From Lolliginicoccus suaedae (lineage in GTDB: Bacteria > Actinomycetota > Actinomycetes > Mycobacteriales > Mycobacteriaceae), in contig NZ_VSSO01000002.1 in assembly GCF_008312885.1 (NCBI RefSeq), positions 359,846-423,845 on the forward strand: 64,000 nucleotides of DNA, given 5' to 3'. Position 1 is the first letter of the stretch. Each line of letters starts with the position of its first letter. Positions 26,369 to 45,838 of the stretch are shown here, in pieces. The notes beneath the pieces were generated by a model, which was given only the letters and a program-made list of their open reading frames with translations, had not been told where the DNA came from and searched no databases. Made by a program: the position numbers and the translations under genes.

Positions 26369-27223
26369 ATGCTGCTCGCTGTGGATGTCGGGAACACCAA
26401 CATCGTTCTCGGCTTGTTCGAGGGCGTTGGCGAGGAAGCGCGCCTGGTCGCTGACTGGCGCGTGCGCACGGACCCACGAACCACTGCCGATGAGCTCGCG
26501 CTCATGGTGCGCGGCCTGCTCGGGCCGCTCGCGGCGAGCGTCACCGGGGTCTCGGGCCTCTCCACGGTCCCGTCGCTGCTACGCCAGCTACGCATCATGC
26601 TGGACCGGTACTGGCCTAGCGTGCCGCACGTGCTCGTCGAGCCGGGCGTGAAGACCGGTGTACCGCTGCTCGTCGACAATCCGAAGGAAGTGGGCGCGGA
26701 TCGGGTGGTCAATGCGCTCGCCGCCTACCATTACTGCCGCAATGCGTGCATCGTCGTGGATTTCGGCACGTCCACGAGCGTCGATGTCGTCTCGGCCAGC
26801 GGGGAGCTCCTCGGTGGCGCGATCGCTCCCGGGATCGAGATCTCGGTGGATGCCCTCGCCAGCCAGGCCGCGGCGCTGCGCAAGGTCGAGATGGTGCGGC
26901 CACGGTCGGTCATCGGCAAGAACACCGTCGAGTGCTTGCAGTCCGGTGTCGTGTATGGCTTCGCGGGGCAGGTGGACGGCCTGGTGCGGCGCGTGCAGCG
27001 AGAGGCAGGGCTGCCGGACGCGACCGTGATCGCCACGGGCGGCCTGGCCACCCTCGTCCTCGACGAGTGCGAGACCGTGCTGCGCCACGAGCCCGAGCTG
27101 ACGCTGACAGGCCTGCGCCTGGTGTTCGAGCGCAACATGGCGGCCCAGCGTCGATCGCATCGTCCCGCGGTCGCCCACAACCCGCGTGCCGCCGCTGTGC
27201 ATGCCCAGCGGGCCGCGCGCTGA
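26369..27223 (+). CDS. coaX: Type III pantothenate kinase
   Basis: 284 residues. It phosphorylates pantothenate, the first step of CoA synthesis. It belongs to the ASKHA fold: the phosphate-1 loop is [16 protein letters not shown], the catalytic region is [20 protein letters not shown], and [14 protein letters not shown] follows. The C-terminal 25 residues are a basic, Ala-rich tail. It completes a panC-panD-coaX run; lysS follows after the leader peptide and fused sulfur gene. Confidence 0.95.
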
Positions 27224-27287
27224 GCGCAGTGTGATCCGTGACCTTATCGGCTACCGATCCCGCAGTGCCTGTGCAACACTGAGAGGC

Positions 27288-27365
27288 ATGTGGAACTCCC
27301 AGCATGCCGCGTGCCGCTCCCGGCGCGTCGATGCTTGCTGTCCGCGGAACTGTCGCGCCCTCTGA
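27288..27365 (+). CDS. Cysteine-rich leader peptide (putative sulfur attenuator)
   Basis: 25-residue ORF, ATG 27288 to TGA 27363-27365, preceded by GAGAGG. It has four Cys: one at residue 9, a CC pair at 17-18 and one at 22, with the core SRRVDACCPRNC. This resembles the short actinobacterial leader peptides (RRHVDLCR-x-x-S-x-x-C type) found upstream of sulfur-assimilation genes. In mycobacteria, Cys-rich upstream ORFs of this kind attenuate downstream genes when Cys-tRNA is plentiful. It ends 42 bp before the fused CDO/rhodanese-like gene. Assignment rests on pattern and position only. Confidence 0.65.
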   Translation: MWNSQHAACRSRRVDACCPRNCRAL

Positions 27366-27407
27366 GCCCGCCGCACCGTTCTGCCGACATTCCCCTGGAG
27401 TTCCCCC

Positions 27408-28247
27408 ATGATCGCCACCCCCACTTCCATTCCTGCTGCCCCAGAGGCGCTCGCGACCGCGCCTACCGCGCCGGTCCTGCTCGCTGCTGCCGATGAGCAT
27501 GCCGCGCGGGTTCTCGATGGCTCTGCCCGGTTCCTCGCGCACGAGGTCGTGCCGGGCCGCCAGCGCTGGCTGCTGGACCGCGATGACCACCTCGAGGCGT
27601 GGCTCGTCGAGCAGGAGCCCAGTACCCGATGGGACCGGCCCACGGCACTGAGCGCCGCGGCGATCACCGTCCTCGACGGAGAGCTCGATATCGAGCGGTG
27701 GAACGGCGAGGGCCGGATCACGCGCCGGGTGGGCAGCGGCGAGCAAGCGTCCTTCACCAGCGGGACCATGCGCGGCACCAGGCCCGCCTCCGATGGCCCC
27801 GTCGTTACTGTCCATGCGGTGGCGCGCCGACGGGCCCCTCTCGATGATCTCGCGGCGACGGCCGTTTTCCCCGGTGATCTGCAGGCCGCGGTCGCGCGGG
27901 GAGCGCGCGTCGTCGATATCCGTACCCAGCAGGAACGCATCGAGCAGGGGCCGCTGCTCGGGGCGATCGCCATCGATGCGGACAAGGTGGCCCATCGCGT
28001 GGATCCCCGCAGCGCGGTCCGGTTCCGCGAGGCAACGAGCACCGACATCGAATGGATCATCGCCAGCTCGGACGGCACGGCGGCCCAGCCGATCGCTTCG
28101 GAGCTCCGGCGCCGCGGCATCACGCGGGCCCGCGTGCTCGTCGACGGGTTCGCTGGTCTCGCCGAGCACGGTCCCGGGGAGCCGCTGCGCGCTATCCTCG
28201 GCGGCGTGGCGCACCATCGCGATGCCGCGGTGATGGCCGCGCACTGA
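27408..28247 (+). CDS. Cysteine dioxygenase-like cupin fused to rhodanese-like domain, both active sites degenerate
   Basis: 279 residues. Residues 20-145 align by eye with actinobacterial cysteine dioxygenases ([15 protein letters not shown], then [13 protein letters not shown], then [14 protein letters not shown]). Residues 150-275 align with the rhodanese usually encoded next to CDO ([39 protein letters not shown]). The CDO HxH iron motif, normally HDHGGS before the F/I-TVL strand, is replaced by RWDRPTALS. The later His is also missing ([11 protein letters not shown]). The rhodanese Cys loop reads [10 protein letters not shown], with Ser where Cys is expected. ATG 27408 follows a weak GGAG. 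It is probably a non-catalytic sensor or scaffold, or a decaying gene; the clean open frame argues for retention. The usual state is two separate genes. Confidence 0.7.
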
Positions 28248-28293
28248 TCCGCGATGCGGGACGTTGGGCGCCGAGCCACTATTCTGGTCAGTC

Positions 28294-29877
28294 GTGAGTG
28301 CTGCCCGAGATTCCGACAACCAGGCGACGGTGAGTCCAGTGACCGATCCTTCCCAGTCCACGACGAGCGCAGCGGCCAGTGCGGCGAGCGACGAGTTCGA
28401 GCAGCTCCGCGTTCGCCGCGAGAAGCGCGACCGGCTCATCGAGTCCGGTGGAGAGGCCTATCCGGTCGTGGTGGAGCGCACGCATGCCCTGCGCGAGGTG
28501 CGCGAGAAGCATGGTGATCTCGCTGCGGGCGAGTCCACCGGCGAGATCGTCAGCGTCGTGGGCCGGGTGATGTTCATCCGCAACACCGGCAAGCTGTGCT
28601 TCGGCGTCCTCCAGGAAGGCGATGGCACCCAGTTGCAGGCGATGCTCAGCCTCGCCGAGATCGGTGCGGACGCGCTGGGGCAGTGGAAGTCGGACGTGGA
28701 CCTCGGCGATATCGTCCAGGTGACCGGTGAGGTCATCAGTTCCCGCCGCGGCGAGCTGAGCGTGATGGCCAGCGGGTGGCGCATGGCGTCGAAGGCGTTG
28801 CGCCCGCTGCCCGTGACGTTCAAGGAATTGAACGAGGAATCACGGATGCGGCAGCGCTACGTGGATCTCATCGTGCGCCCGGAGGCGCGGGAGATGGCGC
28901 GCAAGCGGGTGGCCGTCGTGCGCGAGCTGCGCAACGCGCTCGAGCGCCGGGGCTTCCTCGAGGTCGAGACGCCGATGCTGCAGACATTGCACGGCGGTGC
29001 CGCGGCGCGGCCATTTGTGACGCATTCGAACGCTCTCGATATGGACTTGTACCTCCGGATTGCTCCCGAGCTGTTTCTGAAGCGCTGCGTGGTCGGCGGC
29101 ATCGACAACGTTTTCGAGATCAACAGGAACTTCCGCAACGAGGGCGCGGACTCGTCGCATTCGCCCGAGTTCGCGATGCTCGAGACCTATGAGGCGTACG
29201 GAACCTACGATGATTCAGCGCGGATGATACGTGAGGTCATCCAGGAAGTCGCGGACGCGGCATTTGGTACGCGTCAGATCATCCTCGCCGACGGATCGAC
29301 CTACGATATCGATGGCGAGTGGGCAGTGATGGAAATGTATCCTTCGCTATCCGAAATCCTCGGCGAGGACGTGACGCCCGACACCAGTGTCGATGAGTTG
29401 CTCGCCATCGCGCAGCGTATCGGGTTCGAGGTCCCGCCGGACAAGGGATATGGGCACGGCAAGCTAGTGGAGGAAATGTGGGAGCATCTCATCGGTGATC
29501 ATCTCCACGCCCCGACCTTCGTGCGCGACTTCCCGGTGGAGACCTCACCCTTGACGCGCCAGCACCGGACGAAGCCGGGGGTGACCGAGAAGTGGGACCT
29601 CTACGTGCGGGGATTCGAGCTTGCTACTGGCTACTCGGAGCTCGTCGACCCGGTTATCCAGCGCGAGCGATTTGTTGACCAGGCACGACTTGCTGCTGCC
29701 GGGGACGACGAGGCCATGGTGCTCGACGAGGATTTCCTTGCCGCGATGGAGCACGGCATGCCACCAACGACAGGCACCGGGATGGGAATCGATCGCCTGC
29801 TTATGGCGCTCACCGGACTGGGAATCCGTGAAACCATCCTCTTCCCGATTGTGCGTCCGCTTGGAAAAAACAGCTAA
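28294..29877 (+). CDS. lysS: Lysyl-tRNA synthetase (class II)
   Basis: 527 residues from GTG 28294. It charges tRNA-Lys. The N-terminal OB fold binds the anticodon ([40 protein letters not shown]). The catalytic core has motif 1 [21 protein letters not shown], motif 2 [19 protein letters not shown] and motif 3 [24 protein letters not shown] at 28280-28285 places a transcription start about at this GTG, so a leaderless start is favoured; GTG 28330 is an alternative that loses 12 unconserved residues. lsr2 follows, as in mycobacteria. Confidence 0.95.
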
Positions 29878-44373: not shown

Positions 44374-44434
44374 TCTGCCGGTCATGCTCGGGGGATTCGA
44401 GAATGCGCGGCCCCACCAAGTACGATGATGCGTT

Positions 44435-45838
44435 GTGACCCTGCGCCTTTTTGACACCGCGACACGCACCCAGCGGGACTTTGCCCCGCTCGTCGACGGC
44501 CAGGTCTCCATCTACCTCTGTGGCGCGACGGTGCAGGGCGAGCCGCACATCGGTCATGTTCGCAGCGGGGTCGCCTTCGATGTGCTCCGCCGCTGGCTCC
44601 TCGCGAAGGGGCACGATGTCCGGTTCGTGCGCAACGTCACCGACATCGACGACAAGATCCTCACCAAGGCGGCCGATGCGGGCCGCCCGTGGTGGGAGTG
44701 GGCCGCCACCTACGAGCGAGCCTTCGATCGGGCCTACGACAAGCTAGGCGTGCTCCCACCATCCGTGGAGCCGCGCGCGACAGGCCACATCACCCAGATG
44801 ATCGAGCTCATCGAGACGCTCATCGAGCGGGGCCACGCATATGCCGCCGGTGGTGATGTGTACTTCGACGTGCGCAGCTTCCCCGAGTACGGCGCGCTGT
44901 CCGGGCATCGCGTCGATGATGTCCACCAGGGCGAGGGCGCTGGCGGGCACAAGCGCGACCAGCGTGACTTCACCCTCTGGAAGGCCGCGAAGCCCGGCGA
45001 GCCCTCCTGGCCGACGCCGTGGGGGCAGGGGCGTCCCGGATGGCATCTCGAGTGCTCCGCGATGGCTGCGGCCTATCTCGGCCCGGATTTCGACATCCAC
45101 TGCGGCGGAATGGACCTCGTCTTCCCGCACCACGAGAATGAGATCGCGCAGAGCCGCTGCGCGGGCGGTGGCTTCGCCCGCTACTGGCTGCACAACGGGT
45201 GGGTCACCCTCGGCGGCGAGAAGATGTCGAAGTCGCTGGGCAACACCTTGTCGATCCCCGCGATGCTCGAGCGGGTGCGCCCGCAGGAACTGCGCTACTA
45301 CCTGGGCAGCGCCCACTACCGGTCCATGCTGGAGTACTCCGAGCATGCCGTCGAGGAGGCCGCAGCGACCTACCGGCGGATCGAGGCGTTCCTGGACCGG
45401 GTCGCGCGACGGGCTGGCGGGATCGCCGTGGGGGAGTGGACCGAGGCATTCGCCGCGGCGCTCGATGATGACCTCGGGGTGCCGGCGGCGCTCGCGGAGA
45501 TCCACACCGTCATCAGCACCGCGAACACGGCTCTCGAGGGCGGCGAGCCCGAACGGGCGCGGGAGCTGGCCGGGCAGGTGCGGGCGATGCTCGCCATCCT
45601 GGGGGTCGATCCGCTCGCTCCGCAATGGCGAGCGGGCCAGGCAGCGCCCGGCAGTGCCGATGCCGCCCACGCGGCGCTCGATGCGCTCGTCCGCGATGAG
45701 CTCGCCCGGCGCCAGCAAGCCCGCGCTGATCGGGACTGGGCCACCGCCGATGCCGTCCGGGACAAGCTCGCCGCGCTCGGCATCATCATCACAGACACAC
45801 CAGATGGGCCGGAGTGGGCCCTGAGGAACGACCACTAG
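44435..45838 (+). CDS. cysS: Cysteinyl-tRNA synthetase
   Basis: 467 residues. Class I synthetase: the HIGH motif is [15 protein letters not shown], the zinc-binding Cys in YLCGATVQG and the later C-H-E cluster in [11 protein letters not shown] and HHENEIAQS are present, and KMSKS occurs in [15 protein letters not shown]. It is the usual length. TACGAT at 44421-44426, 8 bases before GTG 44435, suggests a leaderless mRNA. It is followed 41 bp later by rlmB, the mycobacterial order. Confidence 0.96.

Follow-up and report, generated by a model that had tools for sequence, protein, structure and literature searches.

What is the work of a protein that joins a cysteine dioxygenase (CDO) to a rhodanese and has lost the catalytic residues of both? 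The question is raised by a single gene in the window, by which we mean the whole 64,000-nucleotide stretch of DNA analysed here. The host is a salt-loving actinobacterium, and its genome is closest to Lolliginicoccus, with best segments 86% identical to L. lacisalsi and 88% identical to L. levis; the NCBI taxonomy places this genus in Hoyosellaceae. The gene runs from its ATG to a TGA as an intact frame, is preceded by a Shine-Dalgarno GGAG (27397-27400, 7 bases 5' of the ATG), and is flanked by coaX and lysS, the latter beginning 16 bases (first possible start) or 46 bases (likely GTG) after its stop:

26369-27223, forward strand: coaX, type III pantothenate kinase, upstream neighbour of the fused gene
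27408-28247, forward strand: fused CDO-like/rhodanese-like gene, ATG at 27408 to TGA at 28247, 279 codons (279 amino acids), no cysteine
28280-28285, forward strand: -10-like box TATTCT, 8 bases 5' of the lysS GTG at 28294, read from the sequence and absent from the results of a sigma-70 consensus scan
28294-29877, forward strand: lysS, lysine-tRNA ligase, GTG start, downstream neighbour of the fused gene

The earlier note had proposed that the two domains are fused and line up with the separate CDO and rhodanese proteins of actinobacteria, that the position of the H-x-H iron motif reads RWDRPTALS, that the later histidine is missing, and that the rhodanese cysteine has become serine. Comparison with relatives upheld this description in all but one detail, and gave the following map of the protein:

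27471-27857, forward strand: CDO-like cupin domain, approximately residues 22-150 (hhalign to a CDO profile; tblastn with an intact CDO, E 9e-9)
27627-27653, forward strand: RWDRPTALS, site of the lost H-x-H iron motif, the first His aligned with Pro78 (profile alignment)
27771-27773, forward strand: Arg122, at the position of the third iron-ligand His (profile alignment), where the genus g24 retains His
27864-28244, forward strand: rhodanese-like domain, approximately residues 153-279 (Pfam, 16.4 bits; tblastn with two rhodanese relatives, E 4e-20 and 1e-23)
28065-28067, forward strand: Ser220 (SSDG), replacing the rhodanese catalytic Cys (alignment)
28215-28244, forward strand: C-terminal tail of 10 residues, the same in 6 of 7 fused proteins; the seventh ends ASH

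A profile of the seven fused proteins aligned with a profile of eight separate CDOs from relatives at 99.2% probability (hhalign; E 1.2e-19, 35% identity over 120 columns). Set against the cysteine/thiol dioxygenases of CDO_I (PF05995), the window protein has a homologous cupin domain but lacks all three iron ligands and the motif tyrosine: the first histidine of H-x-H corresponds to Pro78, the second to a gap in the profile alignment, and the third to Arg122. The detail that needs amending is the later histidine, whose absence holds for the third iron ligand but not for the S-x-H-x-Y motif, which reads T134-V-H136-A-V138, with His136 retained and Ser and Tyr lost. The approximately 33 residues that follow this motif in the intact CDO of locus L064 have no counterpart in the window protein, and by sequence comparison the fused proteins are without CDO residues beyond SVHAY. 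The N-terminal half gave no Pfam match at E 10, CDO_I included, the PF05995 profile had no match at E 1 anywhere in the genome of the window, and the solved structures 8qfl-8qfr, titled Cysteine dioxygenase, yielded a weak profile match to 8qfq (E 0.0012). An AlphaFold model built from 3 sequences reached a mean pLDDT of 34.9, too low for a fold search.

The C-terminal half shares the framework residues D170, R172, G181, G185, W216, and G223 with single-domain rhodaneses (sulfurtransferases, PF00581). It differs from them in carrying Ser220 instead of the catalytic cysteine and in scoring 16.4 bits against the Pfam Rhodanese profile, under the curated cut-off of 22.2, which 15 other rhodanese-domain matches in the window's genome pass. 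The fusion itself is confirmed by the profile alignment, the tblastn matches, and this sub-cut-off Pfam match taken together.

Both halves of the fused gene are under purifying selection at the amino-acid level. Among three close Lolliginicoccus, dN/dS was 0.148-0.201 for the CDO-like part and 0.065-0.099 (approximately 0.10) for the rhodanese-like part, as against 0.082-0.093 for coaX and 0.081-0.098 for the first 200 codons of lysS. Along with the intact frame, the low ratios in both halves bear out the earlier suggestion that a clean frame of 279 codons is being kept. Close pairs of relatives lacking the rhodanese cysteine gave 0.078 (L052/L152), 0.064 (L171/L172), and 0.032 (L061/L163), and some distant within-genus pairs rose to about 1 (1.047 for L051/L150), values that we read as the product of saturated, composition-biased dS and did not use. 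A pseudogene, considered as a candidate, is ruled out by the low dN/dS, which lies near the coaX and lysS values.

The ancestry of the gene can be read from its relatives. In many genera, across 40 fetched regions (one of which, L073, contained none of the genes) and later ones, the common order is coaX, CDO, rhodanese, lysS. The CDOs of this coaX-lysS locus carry the HDH, WVHDV, and SVHAYS motifs and the partner rhodanese carries CSEG. In 29 of 32 pairs the rhodanese start lies at or before the CDO stop, an overlap such that a short deletion would suffice to fuse the two. The fusion is carried by four Lolliginicoccus genomes and by three g24 genomes with a full-length match, and the fused genes form one clade (FastTree support 0.994, in a tree that excludes two g3 genes). 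In the g24 fused proteins H-x-H is gone, and the third histidine and the rhodanese cysteine are retained. We infer a stepwise loss, in which overlapping thiol dioxygenase and rhodanese genes would have merged into one frame, the dioxygenase would have failed first, with H-x-H lost in both fused genera, and the third iron histidine and the rhodanese cysteine would have followed in Lolliginicoccus, the only genus among those with fused genes to have lost the cysteine. With the cysteine-bearing g24 proteins and intact relatives in many other genera at hand, each of these steps is testable.

Loss of the rhodanese cysteine is not peculiar to the window gene and belongs to a wider pattern at the coaX-lysS locus. 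We surveyed 132 genes, hand-picked and enriched for divergent copies, so that the proportions given here do not estimate natural frequencies; the survey kept to the family (without L105-L116), counted each locus of a genome once, and took in shorter loci only where these were refetched. In 61 of the rhodaneses the Cys is replaced by Ser, Thr, Gly, or Ala. These 61 come from 12 genera and all adjoin coaX or lysS; 35 of the 301 family genomes had no match. The framework of Asp170, Arg172, Gly181, Gly185, Trp216, and Gly223 and the -AH tail are conserved among the Cys-less copies of the 12 genera. The -AH end is common to many coaX-locus relatives of the fused protein, and -AH or -SH is the C-terminal end of 43 of the 61 Cys-less proteins from coaX/lysS loci and of 25 of the 41 that bear Cys, compared with 0 of 30 at other loci. 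The retained framework and the conserved C-terminal end point to a putative binding or regulatory role at the coaX-lysS locus.

The partner dioxygenase follows the same division. By motif pattern, an intact CDO stands alongside none of the 61 Cys-less rhodaneses, compared with 55 of 69 Cys-bearing ones, a count that becomes 57 or 58 once corrected for the CDOs of L093 and L100 (H-D-H, WVHDV), which the pattern missed, and for L134, which it misread. On the tree, the presence of the Cys must have changed three times or more, and a sign test for correlated loss there had no power, with 2 independent pairs on starred branches and 3 on all. In the two g10 genomes with Ser, the CDO lacks one iron ligand (third His to Tyr in L053, second His to Arg in L195). 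Sampled genomes of g8, g9, g11, g13, and g19 also have an intact CDO-rhodanese pair at another site; the window's genome has none. Among the Cys-less rhodaneses between coaX and lysS, with the loop [SGTA]x[DNE]G, are those of L150-L174 (g9, g11, g13, g19) and L182-L186 (g30); in the first four of these genera the loop is often followed by a conserved D/E-A-E stretch (for example DGHDAEWLAWHLQARGV).

Along with the catalytic cysteine, the Cys-less relatives have lost nearly all others. No cysteine occurs from the domain start onward in 52 of the 61, and non-catalytic cysteines number 1.36 per 1000 amino acids in this group, against 6.37 in Cys-bearing proteins of the same locus and 6.07 elsewhere. 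The sampled CDOs are also poor in cysteine (48 of 59 have none beyond the start of the first conserved motif). Taken singly, the window protein's lack of cysteine is weak evidence, as 5 of the 31 window proteins of at least 250 amino acids in a rough ORF set are equally Cys-free; it does count against a persulfide formed on the protein. Poverty in cysteine and methionine is described for sulfur-acquisition proteins (PMC7661421).

The link to cysteine comes from upstream of the gene, where a short open reading frame (uORF) rich in cysteine codons and a predicted hairpin occupy the interval between coaX and the fused gene:

27275-27280, forward strand: -10-like box AACACT, 7 bases 5' of the uORF start in a leaderless layout (comparison with TACACT-N7-GTG in L064)
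27288-27365, forward strand: uORF, ATG at 27288 to TGA at 27365, 25 codons, MWNSQHAACRSRRVDACCPRNCRAL, four Cys codons including Cys-Cys
27292-27299, forward strand: 5' arm of the hairpin, GGAACTCC, at the uORF start (predicted fold); GGATCTCC in L. levis and L. lacisalsi
27397-27404, forward strand: 3' arm of the hairpin, GGAGTTCC, which includes the fused gene's Shine-Dalgarno GGAG; L. lacisalsi has GGAGATCC here, a change on both sides that preserves the match

The earlier note had connected the gene with cysteine but did not report this leader; the connection stands through the leader, and nothing in the protein supports it. The note's idea that the protein might itself act as a sensor of cysteine or persulfide, or as a scaffold, is at most a possible reading. 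The uORF is present without indels in L. levis and L. lacisalsi, and 5 of the 640 short ORFs of the window, itself counted, are equally rich in cysteine. Relatives have short ORFs at the same place, ending QECCRG, ECCQG, KCCLR, and similar. Under one fixed rule, a Cys-Cys leader was found at 92 of 102 coaX/lysS loci (37 of 41 with the rhodanese cysteine, 55 of 61 without) and at 18 of 30 loci away from coaX/lysS, with 9 of 132 in a reverse-complement control. A slightly different rule found 91 of 102, with four sites wrongly or doubtfully picked, and detected no Cys-Cys leader in the g4, g12, and g18 loci, in L162 (g13), or in L120 and L194 (g10). At these two g10 loci, where no Cys-Cys leader was detected, a decayed CDO remnant of approximately 100 codons lies upstream of a rhodanese that retains its cysteine. 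CDO-rhodanese pairs away from coaX (L070, L090-L104 of g29, L130, and L131 of g11) are often preceded by Cys-rich leaders of their own, with ends such as CECCRP or MCCCC, and the cysteine leader hence goes with the pair at more than one location. A sigma-70 consensus scan of 27150-28400 returned no promoter-like site, Rfam searches of five loci (L079, L064, L054, L077, L083) returned one sub-threshold, irrelevant match only, and six leader peptides had no NCBIfam match.

The predicted fold of the window leader closes the ribosome site of the fused gene. The segment 27286-27412 was more stable than all of its shuffles (z -4.08, 0 of 200), a longer segment, 27280-27412, had z -2.73 (3 of 200), the L. 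lacisalsi leader with the pair GGATCTCC/GGAGATCC had z -3.98 (0 of 200), and one g27 leader had z -4.27 (0 of 200); one g24 leader was weaker (z -1.52, 19 of 200). The two arms change together within Lolliginicoccus, GGAACTCC/GGAGTTCC against GGATCTCC/GGAGATCC, and in other genera, where the 5' arm consists of the Q-E-C codons, the matching changes are CCCAGGAGTGT/ACATTCCTGGG, CCCAGAAGTG/CACTTCTGGG, and TCCGGAGTGT/ACACTTCGGA.

Tests across the leaders place the pairing in part of the genera. With fixed arms, that for the three close Lolliginicoccus being chosen after the pairing had been seen, 27 of 87 leaders reached 10 of 200 shuffles. The positives were 3 of 4 in g1, 3 of 3 in g24, 7 of 8 in g23, 5 of 6 in g27, 2 of 2 in g20, 2 of 5 in g14, and one each in g15, g21, g22, g25, and g26; the test gave none in g2, g6, g9, g10, g11, g16, g19, g28, g30, and g31, and was negative for the fourth Lolliginicoccus, L082. 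In a general duplex test of the uORF against the ribosome site, which excluded 21 leaders without a start codon by the rule used, only 8 of 66 leaders lay at or below 5 of 100 shuffles, the window leader standing at 17 of 100. Both tests excluded the four leaders whose Cys-Cys site had been wrongly or doubtfully picked. A MAFFT/RNAalifold covariation analysis of 30 leaders misaligned the ribosome-site arm and recovered just one hairpin, located at the uORF stop, with two-sided changes in 3 of its 5 pairs. Overall, a predicted pairing between uORF and ribosome site is supported in Lolliginicoccus, g24, g23, and g27.

The layout resembles a known class of regulators. Polycysteine attenuators made of leaderless short ORFs were reportedly described in mycobacteria by Canestrari et al. 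in 2020. According to a review, genes of M. smegmatis are controlled through attenuation by small leaderless ORFs that lie upstream and contain contiguous Cys codons, the speed of elongation depending on cysteine (PMC9031893); the polycysteine mechanism is treated further in PMC9094748, cysteine-rich uORFs were proposed upstream of cysA2 and other genes by Shell et al. 2015 (PMC4633059), and the general scheme, in which stalling on a uORF unmasks a ribosome site, is set out in PMC13236596. The mycobacterial attenuators, as these papers describe them, share with the window leader a short ORF in which Cys codons adjoin each other close to the 3' end, a start codon approximately 7 bases after a -10-like box, and base pairing that masks the ribosome site of the gene that follows. 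The window leader differs in that it precedes a gene derived from a CDO and a rhodanese and is known here from sequence, and the 5' arms of the three Lolliginicoccus sit at the uORF start, not at the Cys codons. Among titles and abstract openings we found no report of a CDO-rhodanese leader or of a CDO-rhodanese fusion; the Cys-codon leader and hairpin ahead of the fused gene are newly described here.

We consider it probable that the gene encodes a retained pseudoenzyme whose expression follows cysteine supply and whose work, most likely non-catalytic, falls under conditions in which cysteine or sulfur is short. With ample Cys-tRNA, ribosomes would run through the uORF and the hairpin would cover the fused gene's ribosome site; with too little, a ribosome slowed at the Cys codons would let the hairpin open and, by analogy with the mycobacterial attenuators, the fused protein would be made. 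Being free of cysteine, the protein could be produced under just that shortage, where it may play a binding or regulatory role. It is the direction of this switch and the non-catalytic nature of the role that we infer.

A possible, if rather unlikely, alternative is that the protein is itself the sensor or carrier of a small thiol, or of a ligand derived from one, such as an anion lodged in the former rhodanese loop, and so controls the use of cysteine or CoA, the leader being an ordinary cysteine attenuator. The ancestral CDO and rhodanese folds bind thiols, coaX starts the synthesis of CoA, a consumer of cysteine, and the framework from Asp170 to Gly223 is retained; the loop, however, varies much between genera. 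Much less probable is a selective relic, in which the protein has no job and the leader and frame persist only to shape transcription or translation into lysS. That lysS follows closely in the window and is found downstream at many, but not all, sampled loci, and that the Cys-Cys leader is retained even where catalytic residues are lost, would fit a relic, but selection acts on the amino acids of both halves, core residues and the -AH tail are conserved in Cys-less copies of 12 genera, and at L057 lysS lies approximately 2 kb away. Moreover, the TATTCT box, its 8-base spacing, and the GTG suggest that lysS may have its own leaderless promoter, in which case the fused gene would not be needed for lysS transcription. 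That the protein is still an enzyme, through Ser220 or another site, is most improbable of all, for although Ser is the commonest replacement of the rhodanese cysteine and the loop glycine, Gly223, is kept in 61 of 61 Cys-less copies, the position is Gly in each of the 5 coaX-locus copies sampled from g11, Gly or Ala in 4 of the 8 copies sampled from g19, and Thr in two g9 copies, which makes catalysis by Ser unlikely, and the window protein is without any set of iron ligands.

The reading of the gene as a retained, cysteine-regulated pseudoenzyme has to be squared with sulfur physiology. A CDO is usually a cysteine-degrading enzyme, so its induction by cysteine shortage would be odd unless the substrate were another thiol. 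The intact pair has the same kind of leader as the fused gene, which suggests that the actinobacterial 'cysteine dioxygenase' operon serves sulfur scavenging, not cysteine disposal. In Gordonia NB4-1Y, a cysteine dioxygenase and four sulfurtransferases were higher on three sulfonates than on sulfate, their loci not being matched to coaX (PMC7661421). In Rhodococcus IGTS8, two rhodanese proteins, likewise at loci not matched to coaX, were lower, not higher, on dibenzothiophene (PMC8557817), a result that counts against the cysteine-shortage reading.

More tentatively, though with a real chance of being right, the same account might extend to the family. Across no fewer than 12 genera within a single actinobacterial family, the rhodanese of the coaX-lysS locus may have become a mostly Cys-free, non-catalytic cysteine-starvation protein, made by way of a polycysteine attenuator, with the catalytic cysteine lost along with nearly all other cysteines and the intact partner dioxygenase, and Lolliginicoccus would be the case in which the dead dioxygenase was kept and fused. 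If true, such proteins would form a new class of amino-acid-starvation effector: dead enzymes translated only while the amino acid that was once their substrate is in short supply. Most dead enzymes come to light by chance and give little hint of what they do; in this case a regulatory RNA would name the condition, cysteine shortage. The window also holds cysS, cysteine-tRNA ligase, at 44432-45838, 16 kb downstream, which is ordinary, yet relevant to a cysteine switch.
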